From: Kocuria rosea
GTDB taxonomy: Bacteria; Actinomycetota; Actinomycetes; Actinomycetales; Micrococcaceae
Assembly (NCBI RefSeq): GCF_006094695.1
Contig: NZ_CP035103.1
Span: 3,162,001-3,226,000 of the forward strand
Direction of reading: 5' to 3'
Length of the DNA: 64,000 bases
The translations under genes were made by a program, and so were the position numbers. Positions 55,576 through 62,055 of the stretch are shown here, one piece after another. Below the pieces are notes generated by a model that saw only the letters and a list, made by a program, of their open reading frames with translations, was not told where the DNA came from and made no database searches. How positions within the stretch are numbered: position 1 is the first letter of the stretch; each line of letters begins with the position of its first letter.

Positions 55576-56892
55576 CTAGTTGTTGACGACCAGGTCGTCG
55601 AGAAGCGCGAGGGCCTCGTCCCAGGCCTCGTCGGCCGTGGCGGTCCCGGCGTCGAGGCGCTTCAGCGGCGGCAGGAAGACGTTCTCCTGGATCACGGAGT
55701 CGTGCGGGCCCTTGAACTGGGCGACGACCCCCTCGGCGCGGGACGCGAGGATCACCCCGGTGGGTGCGTCGTTGAACACGGGGTTCGGTTCGGCGTCCTC
55801 GACCAGCTTCTCCTGGGCCTCGATGGTGCTGGGGAAGTTGTTCGCCTTGGCCGACTGCTTGACCTGCTGCTCGGGCGCGGTGAGCCAGGCCGCGAGCTTC
55901 GCCGCCTCCTCCGGGTGCTCGGAGGTCTCCGGGACGGAGAGGAACGCGCCGCCCCAGTTGGAGGCGCCGCCCGGGAAGACGTCGGCGAAGTCCCACCCGC
56001 TGCCCTCGCCGCCGCCGGCGGACTCGAGCTGGCCCTCGATGGTGCCGAGCATCCAGCCGGGGCAGACGAAGGTCGCGAAGGAGCCGTCCACGAAGGCCTG
56101 GCCGTTGCCCCAGTCGAACTGGGTCTGGTTGGCGGAGAGGCCGTCCAGCGTGCCCGCGGCGAGCAGGTCGAAGCGCTCGCGCAGCTGCTCGTTGCCCTCC
56201 ACGTTCAGCTCGCCGTCGGCGGTGTAGTAGCCCTCGTCGAGCTGGTTGACCATCGAGTTCCACACGAAGCCGGACTGGTCGTACCAGGCCTTGCCCGTGG
56301 TCTCCTGGTACTCGCGGCCGAGCTCGAAGTAGGTCTCCCAGGTGGCGTCGTCGCCGCCGAAGAGCTCCGCGACCTCCTCGCGGTCGCTGGGCAGACCGGC
56401 CTCCTCGAAGAGCTTTCCGTTGTAGCAGAGGCCCTGGGGGCCGATGTCGGTGCCGTACCCGATGACGCGGCCCTCCGGGTCGGTCCCCTGCTCGAACTTC
56501 CACGGCACCCAGTTGTCCTTGATGTCGGCCGCGCCGTGCTCGTTGAGGTCCACGAATTGGTCGGAGACCTCCATGATCGAGCCGAGCCAGCCCTCCTCGA
56601 TGGCGGTGACGTCGCTGAGCCCGGACCCGGCGGCGATCTTGGTGAAGGCGTCCGTGCGCGCGTTCGAGCCGCGGTCGATGTTCGTGGCCTTGATGGTCAC
56701 GCCCGGGTTCAGCTCCTCGTACTCGCCGTAGAGGTCGTCGTAGCCGAAGGTCCCGAAGGTGGTGACGGTGAGTTCGACGGGGTTGTCGGCGCTGGCCGGC
56801 TCGCCTCCGCCCCCGCCGCACCCCGTGGCGACGGCTGCCAGTGCCGCCGCACCCGCCAGGGCTGTCGTTCGCTTGAGTCGCGTGTGTCCCAC
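55576..56892 (-). CDS. Carbohydrate ABC transporter substrate-binding lipoprotein (CebE-like)
   Basis: A 438-residue lipoprotein. Signal peptide and lipobox are GAAALAAVATGC, followed by a Gly-rich linker, then a family 1 extracellular solute-binding fold (LTVTTFGTFGYDDLYGEYEE, GYGTDIGPQGLCYNGKLFEE, VPETSEHPEEAAKLAAWLT). The GTG at 56892 is preferred because AAGGAG lies five bases upstream; the GTG at 56898 almost touches that site. It is the first gene of the operon, directly after the operator-flanked promoter. The ligand is probably cellobiose or another beta-glucoside, from the GH1 gene downstream. Confidence 0.9.
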   Translation of the reverse strand: MGHTRLKRTTALAGAAALAAVATGCGGGGGEPASADNPVELTVTTFGTFGYDDLYGEYEELNPGVTIKATNIDRGSNARTDAFTKIAAGSGLSDVTAIEEGWLGSIMEVSDQFVDLNEHGAADIKDNWVPWKFEQGTDPEGRVIGYGTDIGPQGLCYNGKLFEEAGLPSDREEVAELFGGDDATWETYFELGREYQETTGKAWYDQSGFVWNSMVNQLDEGYYTADGELNVEGNEQLRERFDLLAAGTLDGLSANQTQFDWGNGQAFVDGSFATFVCPGWMLGTIEGQLESAGGGEGSGWDFADVFPGGASNWGGAFLSVPETSEHPEEAAKLAAWLTAPEQQVKQSAKANNFPSTIEAQEKLVEDAEPNPVFNDAPTGVILASRAEGVVAQFKGPHDSVIQENVFLPPLKRLDAGTATADEAWDEALALLDDLVVNN

Positions 56893-56932
56893 GGTCACTC
56901 CTTGTGTGAAGGGCTGGAGAGGAGCTGCTCTT

Positions 56933-59095: not shown

Positions 59096-59686
59096 ATGAA
59101 CACTGCAGCGCAGACCCCCCTGTCCGAGTCCACCGCGAAGGCCGGCCGGAACCGGCGCGCCGGCAAGGCCGTCCTGGCCGGCGCCGTGGCCGTCGGCCTC
59201 CTCGCCGCCGGCGGCGGGACCTTCGCCAAGTGGTCCGAGGAGCAGGCCATTGCTTCCGCCGACAGCATCACGGCCGGTGAGCTCTCGATGAAGAACACCA
59301 CGGTGTCCTGGACGGATGGCGCCGGGAAGGGCATCAACCCGGCCGTCTACAAGATCGTCCCCGGCGACACCGTCCAGCTCCACGCCTCCACCACGGTGAT
59401 CGCGGTGGGCGCCAACCTGAAGGGGTCCCTCGAGCTGCAGCTCCCCGCACAGCTGCAGCAGGAGATCGACGCGCTCGAGAAGGCCGGCTACGTGTCCTAC
59501 GACGTGACGCTGGCCAGCGACGAGAAGTCGGCCCAGAACTCGTTCCCGGTCACCAAGGACGACAACGGGGACACCGTGACGGCCGTCGCCACGTTCACCT
59601 GGAAGGCGGACATGACCACCGGCAGCGACGGCGAGAACGTGTCCAAGTCGCTGAGCGGCACCAAGCTCGTCCTCGCCCAGCAGTGA
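59096..59686 (+). CDS. TasA/CalY-like secreted protein with SipW-type signal (first gene)
   Basis: A 196-residue secreted protein. After a charged N-terminus of about 24 residues and a hydrophobic segment (AVLAGAVAVGLLAAGG), the cleavage region reads GTFAKWSEEQA, the SipW-dependent type known for TasA/CalY biofilm fibre proteins, which lack a normal AxA site. The mature part is beta-rich with the TasA-like start ADSITAGELSMKN. GAAGGCGG precedes the ATG. A 12-bp hairpin follows the gene. Fibre formation is inferred from signal type and operon, since mature sequences in this group diverge. Confidence 0.82.
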   Translation: MNTAAQTPLSESTAKAGRNRRAGKAVLAGAVAVGLLAAGGGTFAKWSEEQAIASADSITAGELSMKNTTVSWTDGAGKGINPAVYKIVPGDTVQLHASTTVIAVGANLKGSLELQLPAQLQQEIDALEKAGYVSYDVTLASDEKSAQNSFPVTKDDNGDTVTAVATFTWKADMTTGSDGENVSKSLSGTKLVLAQQ

Positions 59687-59710
59687 CGACCCGGGGCCGA
59701 CCGGCCCCAC

Positions 59711-59748
59711 GGCACCCCGGTGTAGCGACGATGTCGCACCGGGGTGCC
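59711..59748 (+). terminator. Strong hairpin between the first and second TasA-like genes
   Basis: GGCACCCCGGTG (59711-59722) pairs perfectly with CACCGGGGTGCC (59737-59748), and CGAC/GTCG extends the stem inside the loop. No T-tract follows. It could stabilise the upstream mRNA or partly terminate transcription. Confidence 0.75.
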
Positions 59749-59787
59749 CCGCCCCCGTCTCGCTCCGTCTCACCCCCAGAGGCCCCC

Positions 59788-60375
59788 ATGACGCGCACTC
59801 CCCGCTTCCGCCCCTCGACCGCCGGCCGCGCCCTCGCCGCCGCCGCGGCCGCGCTCCTGGCGCTGACCCTGCTGGGCAACAGCCTCGGAACGGCCGCCCG
59901 GTGGTCCGACACGGCACCGCTCGAGACGCAGGCCGTCAGCACCGGCACCCTCGACGTGGCGCTGGAGCCCGCGCGGGCGACCCTCCACCGCACCGACGTC
60001 GATCCCACGACCGGTGCCCTCCGGCGCGGAACCACCGACCTCACCGGAGCGGCGGACGCCCTGTCCGCGCTGGCCCCCGGCGACACGGTCGTCGTCACGA
60101 CCCGCGCGGTCCTCGACGTCGAGGGCGCGAACCTCGCCGCGACCCTCACGGTCGATCCCGGCGTGCCGGCCGGCGGCGCGGTCGTCCCCCGCGTCGAGCT
60201 CGTGCCGGTCTCCGGCGCGCCGCCGCAGCCCGGGCCGTCCTCCTGGACGGTGACCTCGGCCCACGACGGCGCGGTCTACGACGTCACCGTCTCCTACGAG
60301 GTGTCCCCGGACCCCGCCGCCCAGGGCACGACCGTCACGCCGGGCCCGCTCACGGTCGCCCTCACCCAGCACTGA
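59788..60375 (+). CDS. SipW-type-signal secreted protein (second gene)
   Basis: A 195-residue secreted protein. The hydrophobic signal (ALAAAAAALLALTLLGNSLG) ends in GTAARWSDTA, the same G-T-x-A-[KR]-W-S pattern as its neighbours. The mature region begins VSTGTLDVALEPA, like the TasA-type strand, and stays beta-rich (TVVVTTRAVLDVEGANLAAT). There are no cysteines. It is co-directional with the first and third genes; the next ATG is 23 bases after its stop. Probably an accessory or second subunit of the same surface structure. Confidence 0.78.
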   Translation: MTRTPRFRPSTAGRALAAAAAALLALTLLGNSLGTAARWSDTAPLETQAVSTGTLDVALEPARATLHRTDVDPTTGALRRGTTDLTGAADALSALAPGDTVVVTTRAVLDVEGANLAATLTVDPGVPAGGAVVPRVELVPVSGAPPQPGPSSWTVTSAHDGAVYDVTVSYEVSPDPAAQGTTVTPGPLTVALTQH

Positions 60376-60397
60376 CCCCCCTCCCCCAGGAGCTCCC

Positions 60398-61378
60398 ATG
60401 AGCCAGTACCGCACTCCCACGGCCTACGTGCTCGGCGTCCTCGTCCTGCTCGCCGTCATCGTGCTCACGACCCCGAACGGCGGGACCCACGCCCGCTGGT
60501 CCGCCACCGCCCTCGCCGAGGTGCCCACCATGACCACGGGCCGGATCGGCTTCGAGATCGCCGCGGTCGAGGGCGCCGGAGGCGCCGCGACCCTGACCAG
60601 CACGTCCGGCTTCGACGTCCGGTACCGGCCGGTGCAGGTCTCCCTGGTGGACTCCGCCGGGCGGTCCGTGGCCGCGCCGGCGGGCATGCGCTTCGCGTAC
60701 CGCACCGGCGCGGCCTGCGACGACGGCGCGGCGCCGGCCGAGTGGACCGCCACCGCACCCGGAGGATCCGCCCCGGCCCGCGTCGACGGCGGGACGCGGG
60801 CGTCCCTGGAGCACGACCGGCCTGCCGGGCTGTGCCTGACCGTCTCGACCGAGGCCGTTCCGGTCGCCGCGCTGCGTGCGCTGAACGAGCAGGAACTGCG
60901 GGTCGTGACGCAGGTGGAGGCCGCCTCGCTCGAGGAGGGTGCCTGGCCCGCGACCCGCCCGTGGACAGTGCCGCTCGTCCTGAAGATGCCGGCCGAGGAG
61001 CAGCCGACGACCGCTCCTCCCCGCCCGGCGGCGGGACAGTGCAGCGTTGACGGGCCAGCCGCGCTGCTCCGGTGGACCTGGTCCGGTGGCGCCGATGCTC
61101 CGGCCGTCACCGCATGGGAGATCTGGATGCGCCCGCTGGGCACCACGGCGGCGCCCACTCGGGTGAAGACCGTCTCGGGCGGAGCGGCACGGACGGTTCA
61201 CGTGGCCGTCTCCGAGCTGCCGGCCTCATCGGACAACCGGCCCAGCCAGGACTACGAGACCCTCGTGCGGGCAGTGTTCGCCACGGGGCCCGCGTCCCAC
61301 GCGGACAGCGCCTACGCGTGGAAGCTCAAGACGCCCGGCGGAAGCGGCAAGATGAACTGTGAAGGACTCCCGTCATGA
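60398..61378 (+). CDS. SipW-type-signal secreted protein, larger (third gene)
   Basis: A 326-residue secreted protein. A short N-terminus leads into VLGVLVLLAVIVLTTPN and then GGTHARWSATA, again the G-T-x-A-[KR]-W-S motif. The mature region starts VPTMTTGRIGFEIAAVEG. It has cysteines near the middle (TGAACDD, AGLCLTV) and the end (GQCSVD, MNCEGLPS), and a C-terminal fibronectin-like half (LRWTWSGGADAPAVTAWEIW). It may be a tip, anchor or assembly subunit. The stop overlaps the signal peptidase ATG (ATGA). Confidence 0.75.
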   Translation: MSQYRTPTAYVLGVLVLLAVIVLTTPNGGTHARWSATALAEVPTMTTGRIGFEIAAVEGAGGAATLTSTSGFDVRYRPVQVSLVDSAGRSVAAPAGMRFAYRTGAACDDGAAPAEWTATAPGGSAPARVDGGTRASLEHDRPAGLCLTVSTEAVPVAALRALNEQELRVVTQVEAASLEEGAWPATRPWTVPLVLKMPAEEQPTTAPPRPAAGQCSVDGPAALLRWTWSGGADAPAVTAWEIWMRPLGTTAAPTRVKTVSGGAARTVHVAVSELPASSDNRPSQDYETLVRAVFATGPASHADSAYAWKLKTPGGSGKMNCEGLPS

Positions 61379-62055
61379 CCACCGTGCTCCGCAAGACCCT
61401 CCACCCGCTGCTCGTGCTCGCCCTGGCCGCGGTGGCCGCGCTGCTGCTCGCCGTCGTCGTCCTCCCGCTCGCGCTCGGCTGGGTGCCCCTGACGGTGCTC
61501 TCCGGCTCGATGGAGCCGACCGTCCCGACCGGCAGCCAGGTCGTGGTCGCCCCGCTCGAGGGCGAGGACGACGCCGCGGGACTGAGCACCGGGGACGTCG
61601 TGACGTTCATGCCCCGTCCGGACGACCCGACCCTCGTGACCCACCGGATCGTGGGCGTCGCGGTGGACGGAGAGGGGCGGCGCAGCTTCACGACGCAGGG
61701 CGACGCCAACGCCGCCCCGGACGCGGAGCCGGTCACCGCCACCCAGCTGCGCGGCCTGGTGAAGTACCACGTGCCCTGGGCCGGCTACGCCGCCACCCTC
61801 CTGGACGCGGAGCAGAAGCGCAGCGGGATCGTGCTGGTCGCCGCGGCGCTGTTCGGCTACGCGCTGTGGCAGCTCGTGGGCGCCGTCCGGGACCGCGCCC
61901 GACCCACGGACGAGAGCGCGGAGGCGGACAGGGACGCGGAGCGGGACCACGGCGCCGGCGGCGTGGCGGAGCAGTTCCCGGCCGGGGAGCAGACGTCCCC
62001 GGCGGAGGCCCCGACGGAGGCGCTGCCGCTGGTGCCCGCCGCCGCCGGCCGCTGA
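61375..62055 (+). CDS. Signal peptidase I, SipW/ER type
   Basis: A 226-residue membrane protease. The first span (VLALAAVAALLLAVVVLPLAL) leads to the catalytic serine in VLSGSMEPTVPTGS. The second catalytic position is histidine in TLVTHRIVGVAVDG, the Ser-His arrangement of SipW and eukaryotic signal peptidases rather than the Ser-Lys dyad of LepB. The GDANAAPDAEPV region contributes the conserved Asp. A second span (IVLVAAALFGYALWQLVG) precedes an acidic cytoplasmic tail. It overlaps the third secreted-protein gene and is the expected processor of all three. Confidence 0.9.
   Translation: MTTVLRKTLHPLLVLALAAVAALLLAVVVLPLALGWVPLTVLSGSMEPTVPTGSQVVVAPLEGEDDAAGLSTGDVVTFMPRPDDPTLVTHRIVGVAVDGEGRRSFTTQGDANAAPDAEPVTATQLRGLVKYHVPWAGYAATLLDAEQKRSGIVLVAAALFGYALWQLVGAVRDRARPTDESAEADRDAERDHGAGGVAEQFPAGEQTSPAEAPTEALPLVPAAAGR

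Follow-up and report, generated by a model that had tools for sequence, protein, structure and literature searches.

The closest described relatives of the locus reported here are SipW/TasA-type operons of Bacillus. In the tapA-sipW-tasA operon of B. subtilis, tapA overlaps sipW and TapA contains one disulfide, according to excerpts of PMC10151520. The same excerpts give the B. cereus order as tasA-capP-calY with sipW, and in excerpts of PMC13082335 the two camelysin-type subunits of B. cereus are joined by a two-domain helper, CapP (BC1280), which steers polymerisation without a sortase. We analyzed a 64,000-nucleotide stretch of the Kocuria rosea genome (NZ_CP035103.1, the single 3.95-Mb contig, positions 3,162,001 to 3,226,000; hereafter, the window), which holds at 59096-62055, on the forward strand, a row of four genes: three open reading frames of 196, 195 and 326 amino acids, and a fourth of 226 amino acids. 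We interpret this row as a SipW/TasA-type fibre operon of Kocuria, with a probability of roughly 0.68 for the interpretation as a whole, inclusive of the assembly, the role of the third protein and the exchange of alleles discussed below. By analogy, the operon probably builds surface protein fibres like the biofilm fibre of Bacillus. The system is of a known kind (SipW/TasA) and represents a new lineage variant of it. What is new is that, between some close relatives, the mature protomer appears to be replaced like a cassette, while the signal and the joint residues stay.

The Kocuria operon shares with tapA-sipW-tasA a dedicated peptidase of the endoplasmic reticulum (ER) type, a TasA-like protomer with an aromatic residue at mature position +2, a PGD box and a late glutamine, and a cysteine-bearing partner encoded by a gene that overlaps the peptidase gene. 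It differs in gene order, in its two TIGR04089-type protomers, in its actinobacterial host, in a partner that ends in a fibronectin-III domain and matches no family, and in a protomer that varies between close relatives. The two camelysin-like subunits and two-domain helper of B. cereus offer a parallel in arrangement; CapP has DUF4047, and the Kocuria partner has fibronectin III. Within the NCBIfam families TIGR04089 and TIGR04088, protein 1 is a TIGR04089 member, protein 2 a sub-threshold relative, and the cleavage motif a signal of the same kind; the name and description of these families, however, are silent on fibres, joints and allele exchange, and protein 3 falls outside them. The protein 1 model finds some of its best structural matches in the Pyrobaculum bundling pilus (7ueg) and the Pyrodictium cannulae (7uii and 9h8b, which we take to be kin of TasA), yet these are archaeal, remote and weakly scored.

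Export signals and a SipW-type peptidase

The first gene (59096-59686) encodes protein 1, the main protomer candidate, with a signal at residues 1-44 and a predicted mature start at K45-W46. The second (59788-60375) encodes protein 2, the second protomer candidate, and the third (60398-61378) encodes protein 3, the partner in the TapA position. The initial annotation had described a G-T-x-A-[KR]-W-S motif directly behind the hydrophobic signal of all three. A scan of the six frames of the window for GTxA[KR]WS returned precisely these occurrences, against an expectation of approximately 0.03: GTFAKWS (59216-59236), GTAARWS (59887-59907) and GTHARWS (60482-60502), each placed after the hydrophobic stretch. 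The proposal that the motif is novel, on the other hand, is ruled out. SipW-dependent signals were already modeled in NCBIfam by TIGR04088 and TIGR04089, and protein 1 scores 99.6 bits against the latter ('exp_by_SipW_III', subfamily III; cut-off 60). Thus, curators had already recognised the signal type, of which the motif is a local form. Against TIGR04088 (the SipW-cognate signal domain), protein 1 reaches 14.4 bits over residues 28-48, below the cut-off of 19, and an upstream partner protein of another genus passes with 24.0 bits. Mature TasA begins with AFND (8aur), which places an aromatic residue at +2, as does K-W-S here.

The fourth gene (61375-62055) overlaps gene 3 by four bases and encodes a SipW-type signal peptidase (ER-type, S26B), as had been proposed. 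The protein scores 85.7 bits against TIGR02228 (ER/archaeal-type; cut-off 51.85), and it possesses the hydrophobic stretches and the Ser-His pair of this class, S45 (61507-61509) and H90 (61642-61644), instead of Ser-Lys. Its best solved relatives are SEC11C and SEC11A. With the equivalog model of Bacillus SipW (NF046067) it gives 89.3 bits for a cut-off of 190, which makes it a relative and not an equivalog. We infer that this peptidase cleaves the three pre-proteins.

A lack of co-conservation of the motif with the peptidase had been named beforehand as one of the findings that would refute the annotation. We sampled 197 genomes of Micrococcaceae and 396 genomes across the phylum, one genome per species. 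Matches to TIGR04089 occur in 79 of the 197 (76 over the cut-off) and in 7 of the 396 (two over the cut-off, this genome being one of them). The window and the neighbourhood of one TIGR04089 match in each of 78 other genomes gave 79 loci, 77 of which contain a peptidase. In 75 of the 79, a protomer match of E < 1e-10 and a SipW-type peptidase share a strand and lie no more than 3.5 kb apart. Of the four exceptions, three (L042, L089 and L129) match the family only weakly, and one (L128) is cut by a contig end. The annotation is not refuted by this test, and its description of a TasA/SipW-like export operon is supported. A script search located an exported protein with a motif of the same type directly upstream of 65 of 74 unfused peptidases. 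Two cysteines are present in 56 of these upstream proteins, four in three of them (protein 3 included) and none in six.

Candidate TasA-like protomers and a partner protein

Protein 1 is devoid of cysteine, as are 81 of 83 strong protomer matches. Protein 2 aligns to TIGR04089 over nearly its full length with 47.1 bits, short of membership, and it keeps the tryptophan, the glycine, PGD and the late glutamine. In the family of protein 1, W46, P89 and Q195 are invariant in 97 of 97 sequences. The five invariant mature columns, which include these three, correspond to F29, G42, P62, G63 and Q232 of TasA in the register given by the profile and VIA alignments; three of the five belong to the "proline box" (F29, P62, F200 and Q232) by which TasA protomers are joined. 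Position 169 is F or W in 72 of the 97, its pairing with F200 of TasA having been made by eye. The AlphaFold2 model of protein 1 has a predicted local distance difference test (pLDDT) score of 89-96 per ten residues over 61-170, and the N-terminal segment is unordered in this monomer. When the model was searched by Foldseek against 350,542 PDB chains, the first two matches, both weak, were 7ueg and 8aur (the TasA fibre). We infer from the kept residues and the protein 1 model that proteins 1 and 2 would serve as protomers of the TasA kind.

Protein 3 bears out its initial description as a large protein with cysteines and a fibronectin-like end: it has 326 residues and four cysteines, and a fold test identified its C-terminal part (residues 205-326; 61010-61375) as a fibronectin type III domain. 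It matches no family in NCBIfam or Pfam, and no credible relative among solved structures was found by sequence (best E 1.1; for protein 1, likewise none, best E 0.047). Its relatives number 29 proteins, all those with a named organism being from Kocuria; within the genus, 7 of the 27 genomes contain its gene. The mature protein has a donor-like start (W34 and TTGRIG, with G48). No PG[DEASTQN] follows this start, and by reading of the sequence the first domain has no late glutamine strand; because of this combination, protein 3 would give a strand and accept none. In the TapA position, it may be an initiator or anchor of the fibre.

The initial annotation suggested a possible actinobacterial surface-fibre system with its own subunits, distinct from TasA. 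The distinction is not supported for proteins 1 and 2, which keep the joint residues of TasA, and stands for protein 3, which belongs to no known family; the operon is of the TasA/SipW type, and the fibre itself is a prediction. The variability of the protomer and the fusions of peptidase and substrate, both described below, had no place in that annotation. Of the checks proposed there, the search with TasA/CalY hidden Markov models turned out negative, for protein 1 obtains 14.7 bits (residues 20-67) with the Pfam camelysin family PF12389, whose gathering cut-off is 22.5, and membership is rejected. The structural check is favourable in the order of its matches and unfavourable in their scores.

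Several points weigh against the fibre interpretation. The Foldseek matches to 7ueg and 8aur have E of 0.013 and 0.014, probabilities of 0.63 and 0.66, TM-scores of 0.24-0.27 and a root-mean-square deviation (rmsd) of about 14; no chain matched the protein 1 model at E 0.001. The third rank goes to an unrelated adhesin (4je0) with the same printed E, and the fourth to a glycosidase with a higher probability (0.96). TasA appears in the VIA comparison with a Z of 5.3 at rank 26, where the top rows (Z 6.5, rmsd 8.9) are themselves below the level that stands out, and the alignment begins at residue 50, in the low-confidence part of the model. A profile comparison of the protein 1 family with TasA aligned 32 columns with a probability of 45%. 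The 83-sequence check shares genomes with the 97-sequence set. For protein 3, the model of the first domain is poor (mean pLDDT 66.6), and kinship of this domain with the two-cysteine proteins of other genera found no support (probability 1.6%), although the cysteine pair is in register; the TapA-like role is proposed from gene position, the donor-like start and the missing acceptor residues. Fibre formation, cleavage and the relative amounts of the products are predictions from sequence.

In a rival account, soluble or wall-bound proteins are exported by SipW-type cleavage, no fibre is made, and the W, PGD and Q residues serve recognition by the peptidase and folding of the monomer. The name of TIGR04089 speaks of export and not of fibres, the structural matches to TasA are individually weak, and, among the literature matches listed, titles and abstract openings held no fibre data for these proteins and none dealt with TIGR04089 proteins, with a TasA system of actinobacteria or with the exchange of alleles among TasA-like subunits. 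However, P89 and Q195 are far from the cleavage site and yet invariant, in agreement with the inter-protomer box of TasA, fibre subunits of the TasA kind take the first two ranks for the protein 1 model, and the N-terminal segment has no ordered place in the monomer. Export with no fibre is, in our assessment, unlikely.

Variability of the protomer and of the fibronectin-III end

The mature part of protein 1 (59228-59683) and the fibronectin-III end of protein 3 differ between close relatives of K. rosea to an extent that their surroundings do not. Compared with one related locus (L066), the flanking proteins are 93-97% identical in amino acids and the peptidase core 93%, whereas mature protein 1 is 39% identical. 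Compared with another (L068), mature protein 1 is 84% identical and the protein 3 end 30%. At the DNA level, identity to L066 falls to its minimum of 49-63% in windows that start at 59251-59551 and is 65-75% across much of gene 3; for L068, the minimum of 51-61% is in windows that start at 60901-61276, and the remainder of gene 3 has 69-78%. Over 21 pairs, the identity of the peptidase core tracks that of the flanks (Spearman 0.86); for mature protein 1 and the protein 3 end the correlation is poor, at 0.30 and 0.34. The cytoplasmic tail of the peptidase (61900-62055) is also far more variable than its core, with 51 and 57% identity in the two loci matched; the DNA identity dips there to 64-73% (64-67% with L066 and 69-73% with L068).

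The window, L066 and L068 form one group in the flank tree, with support of 100/99. In the approximately unbiased test, this group is rejected by mature protein 1 (p of 2e-6) and by the protein 3 end (p of 3e-6), with seven rows per tree and with the tested groups named after the identities were known. Trees of the fourth protein, protein 2 and the first domain of protein 3 hold the group with low or middling support, and those of protein 1 and the protein 3 end conflict with each other over the window and L068.

The pattern extends to other genera. Among 18 locus pairs with peptidases at least 85% identical, the mature protomers are below 65% in seven, and the signals are 81-100% identical in all 18. 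The clearest pair (L106/L120) has a single island of approximately 0.5 kb: over 10 kb at a median of 96%, 7 of 132 windows are below 70%, and all seven lie in the mature protomer. Residues that survive this swap include the tryptophan, two glycines, PGD and the late glutamine. One pair (L054/L103), whose peptidase was misaligned (13%), was not read as evidence.

Could the divergence be no more than the usual rapid drift of a secreted protein under weak constraint, with neither cassette exchange nor diversifying selection? Divergence beyond that of the flanking genes is likewise seen in proteins 2 and 3. In five of the 18 pairs, DNA identity is lower in the mature protomer (48-58%) than in the peptidase by 20 points or more; the other 13 are spread over 68-99%. 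This gradation, which drift could yield, indicates that drift explains part of the variability. A secreted lipoprotein of the window (55576-56898) has relatives that are only 49-50% identical, in three of six genomes. Drift as the whole explanation is nonetheless improbable in light of the single island in L106/L120 and of the two parts that contradict the flank tree, and exchange is best shown by L106/L120 and the two Kocuria cases. The lipoprotein and a second TasA-like protein of this genome were considered as controls for secreted divergence and set aside for want of usable orthologues. A search of this genome for silent copies of protein 1 that could act as donors found none: the next match after protein 1 has E 0.07, and the family search adds only protein 2.

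Selection on the variable parts is what such exchange would suggest. A more far-reaching idea, which we hold tentatively and at slightly less than even odds, is that of a fibre 'serotype' locus: the protomer of Micrococcaceae, joined in Kocuria by the end of protein 3 with its fibronectin-III domain, would be a cassette swappable by recombination in the near-identical signal sequence and the downstream DNA, with the donor start, the proline box and the peptidase fixed, and with phage, predators or kin recognition as the driving force. If this were true, strains would display different fibres on one assembly chassis.

A possible assembly, related loci and significance

The fibre interpretation can be stated as a mechanism. 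The peptidase would cut the three pre-proteins just before [KR]-W-S, such that each mature chain starts with a short strand that has an aromatic residue at +2. Proteins 1 and 2 would be jelly-roll protomers, the N-terminal strand of one entering the next in donor-strand assembly as in TasA, and W46, P89 and Q195 would form the joint. Protein 3, with a donor-like start and no acceptor residues, would start or anchor the fibre, as TapA or CapP does in Bacillus, and present its fibronectin-III domain. Recombination between strains would exchange the exposed parts of protein 1 and of the protein 3 end and leave signal, joints and peptidase in place, which is what one would expect if diversifying selection acted on a surface structure. 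That protein 3 is instead the functional product, an adhesin with proteins 1 and 2 as its carriers or stalk, is suggested by its size (the largest of the three), its own variable fibronectin-III part and the four-base overlap of its gene with that of the peptidase, but is improbable given that the constant partner of the peptidase across Micrococcaceae is the protomer and that TapA of Bacillus is a minor component in excerpts of PMC10151520 and PMC9674648.

A G+C-rich hairpin between genes 1 and 2 (59711-59748) is a candidate attenuator or stabiliser of a transcript end, which would set protein 1 above proteins 2-4 and make it the abundant product. None of 200 shuffles folds as well as the stretch that holds it (z -3.5). 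Seven of seven Kocuria loci have a comparable hairpin at the same place (z -2.2 to -6.5), with a quite different sequence in one (L071); in three of the seven, 2 of 200 shuffles folded equally well.

The operon is flanked by the same neighbours (the fdhD side and the PIG-L/MFS side) in six other Kocuria genomes with protein 3. Relatives of protein 1 with a named organism are from Kocuria, except for one labelled Streptomyces sp., and a wider search adds Arthrobacter, Cryobacterium, Micrococcus and others. The lipoprotein mentioned above (reverse strand), by its sequence probably an ABC-type substrate-binding protein, has no close orthologue in the six related Kocuria genomes.

The same genome encodes a second TasA-like system near 3834084 (reverse strand; L002), with a 186-aa exported protein that has F, PGD and a late glutamine, a SipW-type peptidase of 218 aa and another exported protein, at least 450 aa long. 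In the six other Kocuria genomes, the 186-aa protein has only a single, partial match (31%). Near 1918911 (forward strand; L003:1378-2814) there is a 479-aa fusion, in which a SipW-type peptidase (TIGR02228, 54.1 bits for the cut-off of 51.85) is joined to a third hydrophobic stretch, the SipW-like site STAAFTA and a domain that resembles ice-binding proteins (PF11999, E 3e-25). It is possibly a self-processing polyprotein of peptidase and substrate. In Micrococcaceae, a second peptidase of the operon is often fused to a passenger (L045:8327-9469, L046:8708-9832, L049:1905-3050 and others). A third hydrophobic stretch and a [TA]xAx[FW] site follow the peptidase in 18 of 22 long peptidases that were flagged; among the remaining four, L048 is a profile-matching artefact. 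Some of the passengers look weakly fibronectin-like and contain cysteines; a relation to the fibronectin-III end of protein 3 was set aside at a profile probability of 13%.

The protomer family has been named in databases only for its alternate signal peptide. The present interpretation turns it into a testable fibre system in a large and common actinobacterial group. It suggests that a fibre of the biofilm type can be a hypervariable surface locus, and the swapping of alleles between near-identical genomes opens the question of what recognises these fibres.

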